The notes under the pieces: model-generated
The model's input: only the letters and a program-made list of their open reading frames with translations
Database searches by the model: none
Told to the model about the DNA's origin: nothing
Program-made: the position numbers and the translations under genes
Part shown: in pieces, positions 26,064 through 32,895 of the stretch
Layout of the letters: each line of letters starts with the position of its first letter
Position numbering within the stretch: position 1 is the first letter of the stretch
Assembly (NCBI GenBank): GCA_009781635.1
Contig: WQXU01000002.1
Coordinates: 62,001 to 126,000, forward strand
Reading direction: 5' to 3'
Origin: Treponema sp.
GTDB taxonomy: Bacteria > Spirochaetota > Spirochaetia > Treponematales > Breznakiellaceae
DNA: 64,000 nt

Positions 26064-27437
26064 ATGAAGATAAAGCTGAAGAAGGCCCTGATTTTCACTT
26101 TTAAACGGGGCATCTACCCAAAAGAGCAAAAACAGTTTACAGAAGATGTTCCCATAAATACGCTGCTTCCTGCCGAGGGCAGTGAAATTGTTTTTCCCCT
26201 TTTAATGCATATGGGAACTGCGAATAGTCCGCTTGTCGAAAAGGGGCAGAGGGTGCTGCTCGGAGAAAAAATAGGAGACAGCGATGCTTTCATAAGCGCG
26301 CCCGTTCATTCAAGCGTATCGGGAATTGTTAAAGATATACGTCCGCATTTAACAATTGCAGGCACAATTATCAATTCAGTAATAATTGAAAATGACGGCA
26401 AGTTTGAGGAACATGAGAATATAAAACCGCGTGACGGATATGATAATCTTTCGAGAGAGGAAATTTTAAAAATCATCCGCGAAGCGGGAATAGTCGGGCT
26501 TGGGGGAGCAGGTTTTCCGACGCATGTAAAACTTTCTCCGCCGCCTGAAAAAAAAATCGATACAGTTATAATAAACGGCTGTGAGTGTGAGCCGTATCTT
26601 ACAACTGACAATAGAATTATGATCGAAGAGTCCGGCCGCATTGTAACAGGTTTAAAAATAATTTTAAAAGTTATACAAACCGCAAGGGGAATCATCGCAA
26701 TCGAAGATAATAAACCGGAAGCAATAGAACATCTTAAAGAATATTGCGCAAACATTCCGGATATAAAAGTGGCGGTTGTTAAAACTAAGTATCCTCAAGG
26801 GTGCGAGAAACAGCTTGTAGATGCGATAACAGGAAGAGAAGTTCCATCCGGAGGAATCCCGATTGATGTTGGATGCATTGTTCACAATGTTGATACTGTT
26901 ATAGCAATACACCGCGCAATAATCCGCGGACGCCCTCTTATGCGCAAGGTTGTAACGCTTACAGGCGGCGCGATAAGGAATCCTGGAAATTATAAAATGC
27001 GTATAGGCACATTGCTAAGCGATTTAGTAGAGATGGCCGGCGGTTATAAATCCAATCCTGCAAAAATTGTCGTGGGCGGACCGATGATGGGGACTGCAAT
27101 TTTCGACACTGATGTGCCGATTGTAAAAACAACGGAAGGCGTAATTTTTCTGACAGAAGATGAAGCGTATATTCCTCCGGAAAAAAACTGCATACGCTGC
27201 GGATGCTGTGTAGAGCGCTGTCCTTCCGGGCTTATACCGACGGAATTAAATGCGGATATTTTAAAAGAAAACAGCGAGGCATTCATAAAACATAACGGAC
27301 TTGACTGTATCGAGTGCGGCAGTTGTTCCTATATTTGCCCTGCAAAGCGGCGCCTGTCGCAGGCAATCCGTACAATCAGAAGAGTTGAACTTGCAAAGCT
27401 GCAGGCAAGCAGGCAAAAAAAGCAGGAGCCGAAATGA
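26064..27437 (+). CDS. rnfC: Rnf complex subunit RnfC
   Basis: A 457-residue membrane-associated subunit that carries the NADH/FMN-binding module of the ferredoxin:NAD+ oxidoreductase. The flavin/NADH loop is GLGGAGFPTHVK, followed by INGCECEPYLTTD. Two [4Fe-4S] ferredoxin motifs lie near the C-terminus (CIRCGCCVERCP and CIECGSCSYICP). It heads rnfCDGEAB, in which neighbouring genes overlap by one to four bases. It lacks the long C-terminal repeat extension found in proteobacterial RnfC. Confidence 0.97.
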   Translation: MKIKLKKALIFTFKRGIYPKEQKQFTEDVPINTLLPAEGSEIVFPLLMHMGTANSPLVEKGQRVLLGEKIGDSDAFISAPVHSSVSGIVKDIRPHLTIAGTIINSVIIENDGKFEEHENIKPRDGYDNLSREEILKIIREAGIVGLGGAGFPTHVKLSPPPEKKIDTVIINGCECEPYLTTDNRIMIEESGRIVTGLKIILKVIQTARGIIAIEDNKPEAIEHLKEYCANIPDIKVAVVKTKYPQGCEKQLVDAITGREVPSGGIPIDVGCIVHNVDTVIAIHRAIIRGRPLMRKVVTLTGGAIRNPGNYKMRIGTLLSDLVEMAGGYKSNPAKIVVGGPMMGTAIFDTDVPIVKTTEGVIFLTEDEAYIPPEKNCIRCGCCVERCPSGLIPTELNADILKENSEAFIKHNGLDCIECGSCSYICPAKRRLSQAIRTIRRVELAKLQASRQKKQEPK

Positions 27438-28417
27438 AAATAGTAATAAATCAGATAATGACCGTTTCCTCTCCGCCGCATATGTACGGCACAGCATCAA
27501 TAGAAGCAAGAATGCGTGATGTGCTGATTGCGCTGTCTCCCGCTTTTTGCGCGGCTATTTATCATTACGGTGTAAAGGCATTGCACACAACAGCAATCGC
27601 TGTAATTGCCGCATTAGCAGCGGAATATCTGTACCAGAGAGTTATGCAAAAACCTGTTACGATAAATGATTACAGCGCGGCAATTACAGGCCTTTTGCTT
27701 GGTTTTAACCTTCCGCCGGATGTTCCGTTCTGGATACCTGCAGCGGGAAGTTTTTTTGCGATTATCGTTGTCAAGCAATTGTTTGGCGGCCTTGGCTCAA
27801 ACTTTATTAATCCTGCGCTTGCAGCCAGGGCCTTCCTTCTTGCATCGTTCCCTGTGCACATGACAAACTGGACATTGGCTCCCGACGCTGTATCAGGCGC
27901 AACTTATCTTGCGATGATCAAGGAAAACCCGCTCTTTGTTCCGGAGCTCTCCGATTACACTGCGCTTCTTATTGGGAAAGTAGGCGGCTGTGTCGGCGAA
28001 ACAAGCGCAGTAGCGCTTTTAGTTGGCGGAGTGTATTTGCTTGCAAGAAGGATCATAAACTGGCGCATCCCGTTTTTTTACATAGGAAGTTTTGCATTCT
28101 TTGCATTTATTTTCGGAAGGACAGGTTTCTTCACAGGACACAATATACTGTTTGAAGTGTTAAACGGCGGTTTAATAATGGGCGCTTTTTTTATGGCGAC
28201 AGATTATGCGACAAGCCCTATTACATCTAACGGTAAAATTGTTATGGGGATTGGCTGCGGTTTTCTGACAGTATTTATAAGGTTTTTTGGCGGCTATCCG
28301 GAAGGCGTAAGTTACGCGATCATCATTATGAATCTTTTTGTGCCTCTTATAGATAAATATGTAAGGCCGCGCGTTTACGGCAAGGGAGTTCGCAACAGAA
28401 GGAGGAAGGCAGCATGA
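27434..28417 (+). CDS. rnfD: Rnf complex subunit RnfD
   Basis: A 327-residue integral membrane subunit with about ten helices. The motif SGATYL (about residue 155) supplies the threonine that covalently binds FMN in this family. It starts with GSSFFAIIVVKQLFGGLGSN-type transmembrane sequence typical of RnfD/NqrB. The start overlaps the rnfC stop by four bases and the end overlaps rnfG by four bases. Confidence 0.96.
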   Translation: MKIVINQIMTVSSPPHMYGTASIEARMRDVLIALSPAFCAAIYHYGVKALHTTAIAVIAALAAEYLYQRVMQKPVTINDYSAAITGLLLGFNLPPDVPFWIPAAGSFFAIIVVKQLFGGLGSNFINPALAARAFLLASFPVHMTNWTLAPDAVSGATYLAMIKENPLFVPELSDYTALLIGKVGGCVGETSAVALLVGGVYLLARRIINWRIPFFYIGSFAFFAFIFGRTGFFTGHNILFEVLNGGLIMGAFFMATDYATSPITSNGKIVMGIGCGFLTVFIRFFGGYPEGVSYAIIIMNLFVPLIDKYVRPRVYGKGVRNRRRKAA

Positions 28418-29001
28418 AAAGCATTATTAAGCCGGCTGTTACTCTTTTAATAACCGCCGTGATTACCGTAGCGGCTCTTAGCCTGGTGTACAATCTTACT
28501 CTTGAACCTATAGAAAAACAAAAACGCAGAACACAGGAGACAGCGCTAAGAGATGTTATGCCGCGTGCCTCTGAATACAGGGAAATAAGTATCGATAAAG
28601 AAGGCAGCATTACCGCTGTATTTGAATGTTATCTTGACATTGACGCTTTAAATTTTATCGGCTATGTAGTGCAGCTTTCTCCGGAGGGGTACAGCGGTAA
28701 AATAGATCTAATGGTGGGAATATCAAGCTCCGATGAAAGAATCACAGGCATGCGCGTACTCCGGCACACAGAGACGCCGGGATTGGGCGCACTTGCAGTC
28801 AAAGAAGATTTTTTCCGCCGTTATGACGGTTTAAAACTTGTGCCGCTGGGAGTTGTAAGATCTAATCCCGGTGAAAATGAAATACAGGCCATAACAAGTG
28901 CAACTATTACAACCAGAGCCATAACAAAGGCAGTTAACGAAGCGATTGATTGGTATCACCGTAATGCAAAGCAAATGTCAGATGACAGGAGAGGTGAATA
29001 A
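28414..29001 (+). CDS. rnfG: Rnf complex subunit RnfG
   Basis: A 195-residue subunit with one N-terminal membrane helix (about 10-28) and an extracytoplasmic FMN-binding domain. The covalent flavin site is read as ITSATITTRAI near residue 160, where the first two residues of the usual S-G-A-T motif are T-S; the flavin-bearing threonine is kept. It contains the family's TPGLGALAV motif. The stop overlaps the rnfE start by one base. Confidence 0.94.
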   Translation: MKSIIKPAVTLLITAVITVAALSLVYNLTLEPIEKQKRRTQETALRDVMPRASEYREISIDKEGSITAVFECYLDIDALNFIGYVVQLSPEGYSGKIDLMVGISSSDERITGMRVLRHTETPGLGALAVKEDFFRRYDGLKLVPLGVVRSNPGENEIQAITSATITTRAITKAVNEAIDWYHRNAKQMSDDRRGE

Positions 29002-29621
29002 TGAAATATTTTGATCTTCTTAGAGACGGTATATATCGTAAAAATCCGATATTTGTACAGGTACTGGCATTGTGCCCCCTGTTAGCTGTTACAACATCCG
29101 CCATTAACGCAGTTACCATGGGGCTTGCAACAACTGCTGTGATGATTTGCGCAAGCGCCGCTATTTCACTTGTACGTAAATTGATTCCGACCGAAGTCAG
29201 GATTGCCGCAGCTGTTATTATTGTAGCAGGCTTTGTTACCGTTCTTCAGCTTTTACTGGATGCGTATGCGCCTCCCGATATAACAGCCGCTCTTGGCATT
29301 TTTATTCCTCTTATTGTTGTTAACTGCATTTTATTTGCGCGCCTGGAATCATTTGCATCCAAAAATAAATTATTTGCATCGATCATTGATGCGCTTGGCA
29401 TGGGGCTTGGTTTTACTTTAGGCCTCTTTGTTGTCGGCGTGATACGTGAATTGCTTGGAAGCGGTTCAATTTTTGGAATTGAGCTTTTGCATGATCAGAA
29501 TGCGCATATGCTTATCATGATTATGCCGGCAGGAGCTTTTTTTACGCTTGGAATGATTATTATGGTGCGCAAGCATCTTCAGTTTTCCAGGCTTGGCGCA
29601 AAGAAAAAGGCAGGTAAATAA
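29001..29621 (+). CDS. rnfE: Rnf complex subunit RnfE
   Basis: A 206-residue subunit with six membrane helices, paralogous to RnfA and oppositely oriented in the membrane. The VNCILFAR motif contains the cysteine that helps bind a [2Fe-2S] cluster shared with RnfA in the membrane core. GMGLGFTLGLFVVG is the second conserved stretch. It overlaps rnfG and rnfA by one base each. Confidence 0.96.
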   Translation: MKYFDLLRDGIYRKNPIFVQVLALCPLLAVTTSAINAVTMGLATTAVMICASAAISLVRKLIPTEVRIAAAVIIVAGFVTVLQLLLDAYAPPDITAALGIFIPLIVVNCILFARLESFASKNKLFASIIDALGMGLGFTLGLFVVGVIRELLGSGSIFGIELLHDQNAHMLIMIMPAGAFFTLGMIIMVRKHLQFSRLGAKKKAGK

Positions 29622-30211
29622 TGGAACTTTTATTTATACTTTTCAGCGCAGTTTTTATAAACAACTATGTTCTTGTTCAGTTTTTGGGGATGTGTCCGTA
29701 TTTCGGCGTATCAAAAAAGACCGAGACTGCTCTTGGCATGGGGCTTTCTGTCATGTTTGTCATGACGCTTGCTTCGGTTTTTACATTTCTTTTTTATGAA
29801 TATGTAATGGTGCCGCTTGGTATAACATATCTGCGGACAGTTGTGTTTATTTTAATCATCGCTTCGATTGTGCAATTTGTAGAAGTGTTCATGAAAAAAA
29901 TGTTTAAAGTGCTTTATGCCATGCTGGGCGTCTATCTTCCGCTTATAACTGTTAACTGCGCGATATTCGGCGTAACGCTTATCAATATACAAAACAGATA
30001 TTCAATGGATAATTATTCGTTTGTTGAATCAATTGTAAACAGCCTTGGCGCAGGCGCCGGTTTTACGCTTGCCATGCTGCTTCTTGCAGGTATTCGTGAA
30101 AAGTATGAAAACAATCCTGATGTTCCCGAAGTCTTTAACGGATTTCCGCTTGCATTGTTTTCTGCAGGACTTATGAGTATTGCATTTATGGGATTTATGG
30201 GGTTGATATGA
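29621..30211 (+). CDS. rnfA: Rnf complex subunit RnfA
   Basis: A 196-residue six-helix membrane subunit. It begins with the conserved NNYVLVQFLGMCP and has VNCAIFGV, the counterpart of the RnfE cysteine motif, and GAGAGFTLAMLLLAG. Together RnfA and RnfE form the pathway for electrons and coupled ions. The end overlaps rnfB by four bases. Confidence 0.97.
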   Translation: MELLFILFSAVFINNYVLVQFLGMCPYFGVSKKTETALGMGLSVMFVMTLASVFTFLFYEYVMVPLGITYLRTVVFILIIASIVQFVEVFMKKMFKVLYAMLGVYLPLITVNCAIFGVTLINIQNRYSMDNYSFVESIVNSLGAGAGFTLAMLLLAGIREKYENNPDVPEVFNGFPLALFSAGLMSIAFMGFMGLI

Positions 30212-31020
30212 TGGAAGGATTAATGCTGGAAAATATCCTGTTTCCGATAATCTGCGTTGGAGGGCTTGCGCTTCTCTTTGGAATTATCCTTGGCCTGTCT
30301 GCCAGAAAATTTGCCGTTGAATCTGATCCTCAGGTAGATCGGATCATAAATGTTCTGCCGGGCGCAAACTGCGGCGGCTGCGGTTATCCGGGCTGTACTG
30401 TGTTTGCAGAGCGTGTAGTACAGGGCAAGGCAAGTTACCGCGGCTGTCCTCCGGGCGGCCCGTCAGCCGCTTCTGAAATTGCAAAAGAAATGGGAATTGA
30501 CGCGGCTCCTACAAGCAAGAAAATCGCCTTTATTAAATGCAACGGGACAAACGACAATATAAAAAGAAATTATATTTATGACGGACCAAAAAGCTGCGTA
30601 TCCGCATCACAGCTTGCCACAGGCGGAAACAAAACATGCACCTACAGCTGCATAGGGCTTGAGAGCTGCAAAAACGCCTGTCCGTTTAATGCTATTAAAA
30701 TGGTTGACAGTATCGCAATTGTTATAGGTGAAAGATGCACCGCCTGCGGAAGATGCGTTAAGGTCTGCCCGAAAAACCTGATAGAGATTGTGCCTTATAA
30801 GAGCAATGTCCGCGTTTTGTGCAATTCAAGGGACAAGGCAAGGCTGGTAAAGGAAAGCTGCCGCGCCGGCTGTTTCGGCTGCAATCTGTGCCAGAAAATC
30901 TGCAAGGAAGGCGCTATCACAGTTGCAGATAACATCGCGCATATCGATTATGAAAAATGCAATCTATGCATGGAGTGCATTGACAAATGCCCCTCCAAGG
31001 CAATCAAGTTGATGGGTTAA
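30208..31020 (+). CDS. rnfB: Rnf complex subunit RnfB
   Basis: A 270-residue iron-sulfur subunit, the entry point for electrons from reduced ferredoxin. It has an N-terminal membrane helix (about 8-27), the cluster-binding GANCGGCGYPGC motif, and ferredoxin-type motifs at CTACGRCVKVCP, CFGCNLCQKICK and CNLCMECIDKCP. The complex couples ferredoxin oxidation and NAD+ reduction to Na+ or H+ export, which suits a fermentative anaerobe. The last 40 bases, including the stop, reappear imperfectly at 34201-34240, at the far edge of the accessory block that follows. Confidence 0.97.
   Translation: MMEGLMLENILFPIICVGGLALLFGIILGLSARKFAVESDPQVDRIINVLPGANCGGCGYPGCTVFAERVVQGKASYRGCPPGGPSAASEIAKEMGIDAAPTSKKIAFIKCNGTNDNIKRNYIYDGPKSCVSASQLATGGNKTCTYSCIGLESCKNACPFNAIKMVDSIAIVIGERCTACGRCVKVCPKNLIEIVPYKSNVRVLCNSRDKARLVKESCRAGCFGCNLCQKICKEGAITVADNIAHIDYEKCNLCMECIDKCPSKAIKLMG
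30981..31020 (+). repeat. 3' end of rnfB, left copy of a 40-base direct repeat
   Basis: 31 of 40 bases match 34201-34240 without gaps, including the stop codon. The best-conserved part is TCCAA, CAATCAAG and ATGG. In both copies the frame reads PSKAIK followed by two to three residues and a stop. Confidence 0.6.
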
Positions 31021-31756: not shown

Positions 31757-31858
31757 ATGCATTTTTCTGATTCTAATGATCAATATGAAAAATTGAAAGA
31801 GCATATTGAAAATATTTTAAAATATGGTTTAATAAATGATAAAAGGAAAATAATATGA
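31757..31858 (+). CDS. Small ORF (33 residues) coupled to the FGE-fold gene
   Basis: An ATG at 31757 opens a 33-residue frame (MHFSDSNDQYEKLKEHIENI..) whose TGA overlaps the next gene's start as ATGA. The overlap suggests translational coupling. The peptide is charged and helical with no recognised family. No strong ribosome-binding site precedes it. It could be a leader peptide, a remnant of a longer gene, or chance. Confidence 0.3.
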   Translation: MHFSDSNDQYEKLKEHIENILKYGLINDKRKII

Positions 31859-32712
31859 AAAAATTAACGTTTTTAGTTGTTATGGCATGTTTTATCATAT
31901 ACGGTTTAGCCGCGCAACAAAACAACATGGTACGCATTAACGGCGGAACATTTACTATGGGAAGCTCTGTAAATGAAGCAGGTCGTGAGAGTGATGAAAC
32001 TCAAAGGGAAGTTACAGTTAGTTCATTTAGCATTGGTAAATATCCTGTAACAGTTGGAGAATTCCGCCGCTATGCGGCAAACAATCAAACAGTTGCTGAA
32101 TTACTTGGAGGCGGGTTTATTATTGAAAATGGCCAATTGGTACAAAAAGCAGACGCTAACTGGAGAAATCCATATATTAGTCAGGCAGATAATCATCCGG
32201 TAGTAATGATTAGCTTTTTTGACGCTATATTTTATTGTAACTGGTTAAGTGAACAGGAAAACCTTACTCCTGCGTACACGGTAGATGCTGAATTAAATGT
32301 AACATGGAATCGTAACACAAACGGTTATAGATTGCCTACAGAAGCTGAATGGGAATACGCCTGTAGAGCCGGAACAACAACAGCATATAATACAGGAGCA
32401 AGCGTAACAGCGAGTCAGGCAAATTATATTATTAACATAAGCAGAACGACAACTCCCGTAGGTAATTATCCGGCAAACGCATGGGGATTACATGATATGC
32501 ATGGAAATGTATGGGAATGGTGCTGGGACTGGTATGGAGCTTATGCAACCGGAGCACAAACTAATCCCGCAGGAGCGGTCTCTGGATCGCTCCGTGTGAT
32601 ACGCGGCGGGGGCTGGACCAGCATCGGGCAGCGCCTTCGTTCTGCGCGGCGGGACAAAGACTCCCCATGGAACACGTACTACTTCAGCGGCTTCCGGCTT
32701 GTTCGTCCCTGA
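31855..32712 (+). CDS. Secreted FGE-sulfatase / C-type-lectin-fold protein with candidate DGR variable region
   Basis: A 285-residue exported protein with a signal peptide (about 20 residues, cut after GLAA). The rest is a formylglycine-generating-enzyme-type domain: VRINGGTFTMGS, YPVTVGEF, HPVVMISFFDAIFYCNWLS, YRLPTEAEWEYACRAGT, GLHDMHGNVWEW, and the C-terminal RVIRGGGW...GFRLVRP. The two catalytic cysteines of true FGE, expected after RGG-W, are absent, so it is not a sulfatase-maturing enzyme. The fold is also that of Treponema TvpA, a ligand-binding protein diversified by a retroelement. The first 240 codons are A/T-rich; the last 45 are sharply G/C-rich with many NNC codons. It follows a 33-residue ORF with an ATGA overlap. 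Confidence 0.88.
   Translation: MKKLTFLVVMACFIIYGLAAQQNNMVRINGGTFTMGSSVNEAGRESDETQREVTVSSFSIGKYPVTVGEFRRYAANNQTVAELLGGGFIIENGQLVQKADANWRNPYISQADNHPVVMISFFDAIFYCNWLSEQENLTPAYTVDAELNVTWNRNTNGYRLPTEAEWEYACRAGTTTAYNTGASVTASQANYIINISRTTTPVGNYPANAWGLHDMHGNVWEWCWDWYGAYATGAQTNPAGAVSGSLRVIRGGGWTSIGQRLRSARRDKDSPWNTYYFSGFRLVRP
32602..32709 (+). other. Candidate DGR variable region (VR)
   Basis: The last 36 codons of the FGE-fold gene. Constant blocks (CGCGGC, CTTCGTTCTGCG, GGCTTCCGGCTTGTTCGT) alternate with codons mostly of the form NNC: ACC AGC ATC, GAC, GAC, AAC, TAC TAC TTC AGC. This is what adenine mutagenesis of AAC codons in a template repeat would leave. Base composition differs sharply from the upstream gene. 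No reverse transcriptase or template repeat is in the window. Confidence 0.55.
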
Positions 32713-32745
32713 ATTCTGCGAAAAATCGAAGGGCAAGCAACGGAA

Positions 32746-32772
32746 CGCCGCAGTCCGCCACAGCGGACGGCG
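32746..32772 (+). other. GC-rich hairpin downstream of the candidate variable region
   Basis: A perfect six-base stem (GTCCGC / GCGGAC) with a CACA tetraloop at 32753-32768, extended by CGCC/GGCG outside a three-base bulge. It lies 41 bases after the stop codon. Short hairpins with four-base loops just downstream of the VR assist retrohoming in known DGRs. There is no T-run, so it is a poor terminator. Confidence 0.5.
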
Positions 32773-32895
32773 AGCGTGCTCTTCGCTGGAACTAAAAAAT
32801 ATTTGTTATAAATAAAAAAAATGTATCACTCTGAAGGTAGGCAAATTTTATTCTAAATTATTTACACCAGAATAAGAACATTAAAATACGGGATA

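Follow-up and report, generated by a model that had tools for sequence, protein, structure and literature searches.

An FGE-fold gene of a Treponema-family genome is probably a remote target left after loss of a Treponema denticola-type diversity-generating retroelement

Main finding

The GC-rich 3' end of an FGE-fold surface-protein gene was analysed in a 64,000-nucleotide stretch of DNA from Treponema sp. (the window). This tail is probably a remote target that was left behind when a diversity-generating retroelement (DGR) of the Treponema denticola type was lost; the writing machinery appears to have been deleted from the genome, with about eleven diversified targets remaining. The observed basis consists of variation in adenine columns, tails shared across the genome, a hairpin behind the stop codon, a relic of an HRDC accessory gene and intact systems in relatives, together with the finding of no assembled cognate reverse transcriptase (RT) or template.

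The window gene and its GC-rich tail

The following features of the window were used:
31855..32712, + strand: gene for an FGE-fold (CLec-type) variable protein, DGR target, 285 aa, with an N-terminal hydrophobic signal-like stretch
32572..32709, + strand: variable region (VR), 138 nt, assigned by homology to 10 other tails of the genome and to same-genus template repeats (TR)
32710..32720, + strand: stop codon followed by TTCTGCG, the form that the VR/TR boundary takes on the VR side (IMH-like)
32727..32785, + strand: conserved target hairpin CGAAGGGC...GCTCTTCG, with conserved pairing and compensatory changes
32753-32768, + strand: inner stem-loop GTCCGC-CACA-GCGGAC, inside the 32727-32785 hairpin

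The product of 31855-32712 contained an FGE-sulfatase domain (Pfam PF03781, E 7.6e-60) and was homologous to TvpA (PDB 2y3c, E 6e-22) in an alignment that extended over the VR. Both matches indicate a CLec-fold domain gene with its VR at the 3' end, and the TvpA-like domain type named in an earlier note on this DNA was thereby recovered. An AlphaFold model calculated from five sequences had a mean pLDDT of 51 and was discarded as too poor. Formylglycine-generating enzyme has a catalytic cysteine pair in its C-terminal region; no cysteine was found in the aligned tail of the window protein. The variable face of the protein is predicted to bind a ligand.

GC content was 0.41 in 31855-32574, 0.65 in 32575-32709, 0.62 in 32713-32790 and 0.33 beyond, and the level of the tail was reached by just 0.25% of all 135-nt segments in the 64 kb scanned. 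The earlier note had described this change from an A/T-richer body to a strongly GC-rich tail and had listed constant codon blocks alternating with NNC codons; both descriptions were accurate, as was its statement that no RT, Avd or template lies in the window, which held in the list of open reading frames and in genome-wide searches. The gene is flanked on one side by a complete rnf operon (26064-31020) and on the other by an ORF without Pfam match, followed by MFS and IPP-transferase genes; no DGR parts were present in this neighbourhood. Searched as an exact DNA pattern, the VR core had 0 matches in GTDB contigs and viral contigs.

Homologous tails vary at template adenines

The genome (2.77 Mb, 51 contigs, estimated completeness 99.3%) was searched with 32560-32800 as the query, and ten more homologous tails were found on eight other contigs (C41, C33 with two, C44, C10, C37 with two, C15, C11 and C49), sitting in FGE-type reading frames wherever the sequence sufficed for a check. 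The aligned tails consist of NNC codons interspersed with constant blocks, and among nine alignable tails 33 of 132 columns show three or four bases. Adenine stands in the template of a same-genus relative, G159, at 28 of these 33 hypervariable columns and at 5 of the 99 other columns (Fisher p 1.2e-18); adenine specificity was judged here against relatives' templates alone, as no template of the genome's own was found for this tail. With the same reference, variation fell mainly at template adenines, as expected of a DGR target, in agreement with the adenine-specific mutagenesis scar proposed earlier. Mean pairwise identity of eight tails was 93% in non-A columns and 34% in A columns, and their flanks were 79% identical over 420 nt upstream and 72% downstream. 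Because ten homologous tails exist and the variable columns coincide with the adenines of a relative's template, chance is excluded for the window tail, and its earlier designation as a DGR variable region was upheld.

Some exceptions outside adenine columns fit a template unlike that of G159, for example AAG for AGG at one codon. At one codon, some tails read CNG and others TNT, so that more than one template was probably used over time. Outside the A columns, the tails on C10 and C44 agree at 83 of 84 positions, against 72% identity in the DNA upstream of them; the block was thus copied between genes that are otherwise dissimilar. The window VR has about one private non-A change, and the DGR therefore acted recently.

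Diversification of the tails by duplication, gene conversion and selection on the binding surface, with no DGR at all, would account for the genes being paralogues, and gene conversion could homogenise the constant blocks. We consider it highly improbable, since in variable codons the third position stays C and the first and second take 3-4 bases, the variable columns match the adenines of relatives' templates (p 1e-18) and direct TR/VR pairs are present in the genus.

Two further observations concern the surroundings of these genes. Near-identical nuclease/transposase-like ORFs (MDSNVNR..KSSVFSTLFSNPEVLREVYSAIEG) lie near the VR genes of C10 (L022/L005) and C44 (L021) and possibly have a role in target dispersal. 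A giant lipoprotein built of tandem FGE-Ig modules, in which every FGE has a VR of its own, is broken by the assembly at the end of C37 (L023:61-4025) and the start of C33 (L020:2-2182); the two parts may be halves of one gene.

A conserved hairpin follows the stop codon

The GC-rich hairpin with a four-base loop that had been noted 41 bases past the stop was found at that position and with that sequence: GTCCGC (32753-32758), the loop CACA (32759-32762) and GCGGAC (32763-32768). This inner stem begins 41 nt from the stop codon and the outer hairpin 14 nt from it, so that a hairpin/cruciform stands just 3' of the VR, as in DGR targets. Six VR genes were compared, namely the window gene, one more in the same genome (C41) and four in relatives (G159, G154, G190 and G157); all share CGAAGGGC...GCCCTTCG with the inner stem and a CNCA-type loop. 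Pairing was kept in 96 of 96 counted hairpin cells, of which 7 were changed on both sides, and the covariation score was reached by 0 of 500 shuffles and beat all slid controls. These results favour the view that the hairpin belongs to the conserved features of the DGR target. At the VR/TR boundary, TTCTGCG on the VR side of the window gene is set against CCCTGCG, TCCTGCG or CTCTGCG in templates; by analogy with BPP-1, the version behind the window VR may be regarded as IMH-like. Behind two VRs on contigs C15 and C10 (L028, L029), another hairpin, AAAAAATCAACATCCATGTTGATTTTTT, replaces the CGAAGGGC hairpin.

Intact systems in the same genus

A predicted all-AAC template was used as the query and matched in 50 of 200 family genomes, many of the matches being A-rich template repeats. 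The matching same-genus system has the overall order FGE target, HRDC accessory, RT, template and structured 3' RNA. G176 and G187 show it from FGE target to template, and in G188 and G155 HRDC accessory, RT and template follow in the same order. For G187, 19 of 19 VR differences fall at template adenines in the adjacent (cis) target and 18 of 20 in a target on another contig; the latter indicates that the HRDC-type system rewrites remote targets. Among 40 same-genus genomes, 5 contain a full-length HRDC-type RT, with partial remains in others, and 19 contain FGE-type tails or templates. Such remains include an HRDC gene with stops adjoining a VR in G189 and RT fragments in G160.

In G187 (L043) and G134 (L045), the template repeats contain a TAA that is in frame with the VR; TAA or TGA is kept there by VRs of G187 and G136 (L059), so that some variants encode truncated targets; the in-frame stop is a possible candidate for a template-encoded off state.

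Structured RNA element behind the templates

Directly 3' of FGE-type templates lies an element of ~110-190 nt (TGAGCCCTGCG...CGCAGAACAAACCGCTT...GAGTNACGCTTTCCTGTTGGTAC...GGAARACCGGAAAGCGTTTTTT), for which RNAalifold gave 19 pairs, 12 of them with compensatory changes. Single-sequence folding compared with shuffles gave z values of -2.0 to -4.0 for the elements behind templates and -0.85 for the decayed copy in the genome under study. Rfam returned no match above the gathering threshold (RAGATH-30 and RybB were weak and below it), and the element, being absent from Rfam, is a new lead. Its covariance model matched in 28 of 200 family genomes, and the element accompanies HRDC-type RTs across the family; on the window and the Avd-type loci the model gave chance-level scores only, all in the window. 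The spacer RNA after the TR of BPP-1 recruits the RT complex (PMC12875486), and by its position the present element may be the counterpart of that RNA and serve in RT recruitment.

The resident DGR and the missing cognate core

Features outside the window, on contigs C3 and C33 of the same genome, were:
C3:358-1116: Lcl_C target
C3:1191-1532: Avd
C3:1689-1805: Lcl-type template
C3:1879-3087: RT of an Avd-type DGR, the single intact RT of the genome
C33:2376-2447: HRDC accessory relic, 24 codons

On C3 (L018:358-3087), 19 of 20 TR/VR differences are at adenines. The C3 template bears no resemblance to the FGE tails, nor do the sequences that flank it resemble the FGE-type 3' element. Lcl-type VRs also occur beyond C3, with a second one on C42 and several more in G159.

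A template cognate to the window tail would match CTTCGTTCTGCG...CCATGG. The 2.77 Mb searched held VR-like copies only and no FGE-type template, and a template with the exact non-A sequence of the window VR was found nowhere. No HRDC-type RT was found in the genome with the HRDC-type RT profile; in a search of this genome, G159, G154 and G156 with that profile, two of the four gave a match, in each case to the Avd-type RT alone. Of the parts of a complete DGR serving the window target, the template with the same non-A sequence, the cognate RT and the HRDC accessory were thus all missing from the genome, and an intact FGE-type 3' RNA was not found there either. The 3' element behind the C11 VR has broken pairs (decayed) and that behind the C44 VR is truncated. 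On C33, in mid-contig, the HRDC accessory is reduced to its first 24 codons (71% identical), which stand between an FGE gene and an unrelated gene; this broken accessory probably marks the site where the DGR core was lost. The earlier claim of a remote DGR target accordingly stood as far as writing by a DGR is concerned and fell for an RT and template serving the gene from this genome, none cognate having been found; likewise, the template and RT search proposed as its refutation counts against current service from this genome and leaves past writing by a DGR untouched.

Trans diversification of the window gene by the resident C3 RT, via an unassembled FGE-type template, was considered because this is the sole RT here and an Avd-type RT is the sole one in G159, where the VR beside an RT-less FGE template has 17 of 17 differences at adenines. 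Since the template RNA of C3 has other flanks and nothing in it matches the FGE-type 3' RNA, which family-wide goes with HRDC-type RTs, such service is very unlikely.

An active remote target is an unlikely explanation, yet one with several points in its favour: an intact HRDC-type core with a matching template would be present in the cell or population, unassembled and still rewriting in trans. A contig end is no more than 1.6 kb away from six of the nine VR loci (p 3e-6), so that the gaps of a 51-contig assembly could contain a second, intact core; private non-A changes are few in the window VR, trans action of an HRDC-type DGR is seen in G187 (18 of 20 at A), and populations with mixed intact and degraded loci are known (PMC10907252). 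Against it stand the estimated completeness of 99.3%, the failure to find an HRDC-type RT, a template or an intact 3' RNA in the genome, and the HRDC relic and decayed 3' RNAs, which indicate loss. We infer that the cell itself, and not just the assembly, lacks the core and that rewriting of the window tail has presumably ceased.

RT-less templates in G159 and G154

Behind the FGE target stop, a template with the 3' element was found after 209 nt in G159 and after 216 nt in G154, with no RT in the flanks examined; the stand-alone template RNA of G159 spans L041:1463-1785. Up to the stop, the VR departs from the TR at 17 positions in each genome, all of them adenines (17 of 17 and 17 of 17). 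G159 contains an Avd-type RT only, and no RT was found in G154 (67% complete). Promoter-like sites end 10-14 nt before both templates, a weak finding given a chance expectation of 0.5-0.7 per scanned region. Possibly, though doubtfully, the DGR of the genus has been split into cassettes that lack an RT. Each would combine an FGE target and the target's hairpin with a free-standing template RNA that has a promoter of its own, a conserved 3' fold and a terminator, and would be driven by an RT encoded elsewhere. G159 and G154 would be carriers, and the genome under study would hold recombined remains in which a VR is joined to the 3' element (C11, C44). If such cassettes work in trans, the foldable template RNA would be a portable, non-autonomous hypermutation part.

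Proposed mechanism and implications

Under the preferred reading, loss of a T. denticola-type core, reverse transcription of the template-repeat RNA would have introduced errors at adenines, and the resulting cDNA would have taken the place of the gene's 3' end as far as the hairpin past the stop codon (mutagenic retrohoming). The writer would have been of the T. denticola type (FGE target, HRDC accessory, RT, template repeat and structured 3' RNA), which is still present in some species of the genus and would have lost its core in the present lineage. The remaining targets, the window gene included, would keep intact frames and fixed, formerly diversified TvpA-like binding faces.

DGR variable regions can thus be recognised, and the lost machinery reconstructed, from targets alone; an RT-based search on such genomes would report just the unrelated DGR. 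The 3' element without Rfam match provides a search model for RT-less templates.

Comparison with known systems

The DGR of T. denticola with TvpA (PDB 2y3c; PMC4891356) is alike in its FGE/CLec-fold target and in the HRDC accessory, which overlaps the RT in the relatives studied here. It also has remote targets, and T. denticola isolates without RT and TR retain their target genes (PMC4891356). In T. denticola the accessory gene has the TR on one side and the RT on the other (PMC4891356), whereas in the present genus the template comes after the RT; here, moreover, many more targets are present, in an uncultured, probably termite-gut, Treponema-family genome. In Thiohalocapsa PB-PSB1 (PMC10907252), templates elsewhere match VRs, loci without RT or TR occur, and a single population contains both intact and degraded DGR loci; diversification is shown there by population data, whereas the present case rests on an assembly without the matching template. 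The remote variable proteins of cyanobacteria (PMC7517822) are likewise encoded by numerous scattered CLec genes whose VRs lie at the 3' terminus, but those genomes keep RT and TR, unlike the genome studied here. BPP-1 (PMC3240598, PMC12875486) shares a GC-rich hairpin with a 4-nt loop 3' of the VR and a structured RNA after the TR. Its hairpin loop is GRNA, compared with CNCA here, where the outer hairpin is 14 nt and the inner stem 41 nt from the stop, and the 3' RNA, which matches no Rfam family, is likened to that of BPP-1 by position and not by sequence.
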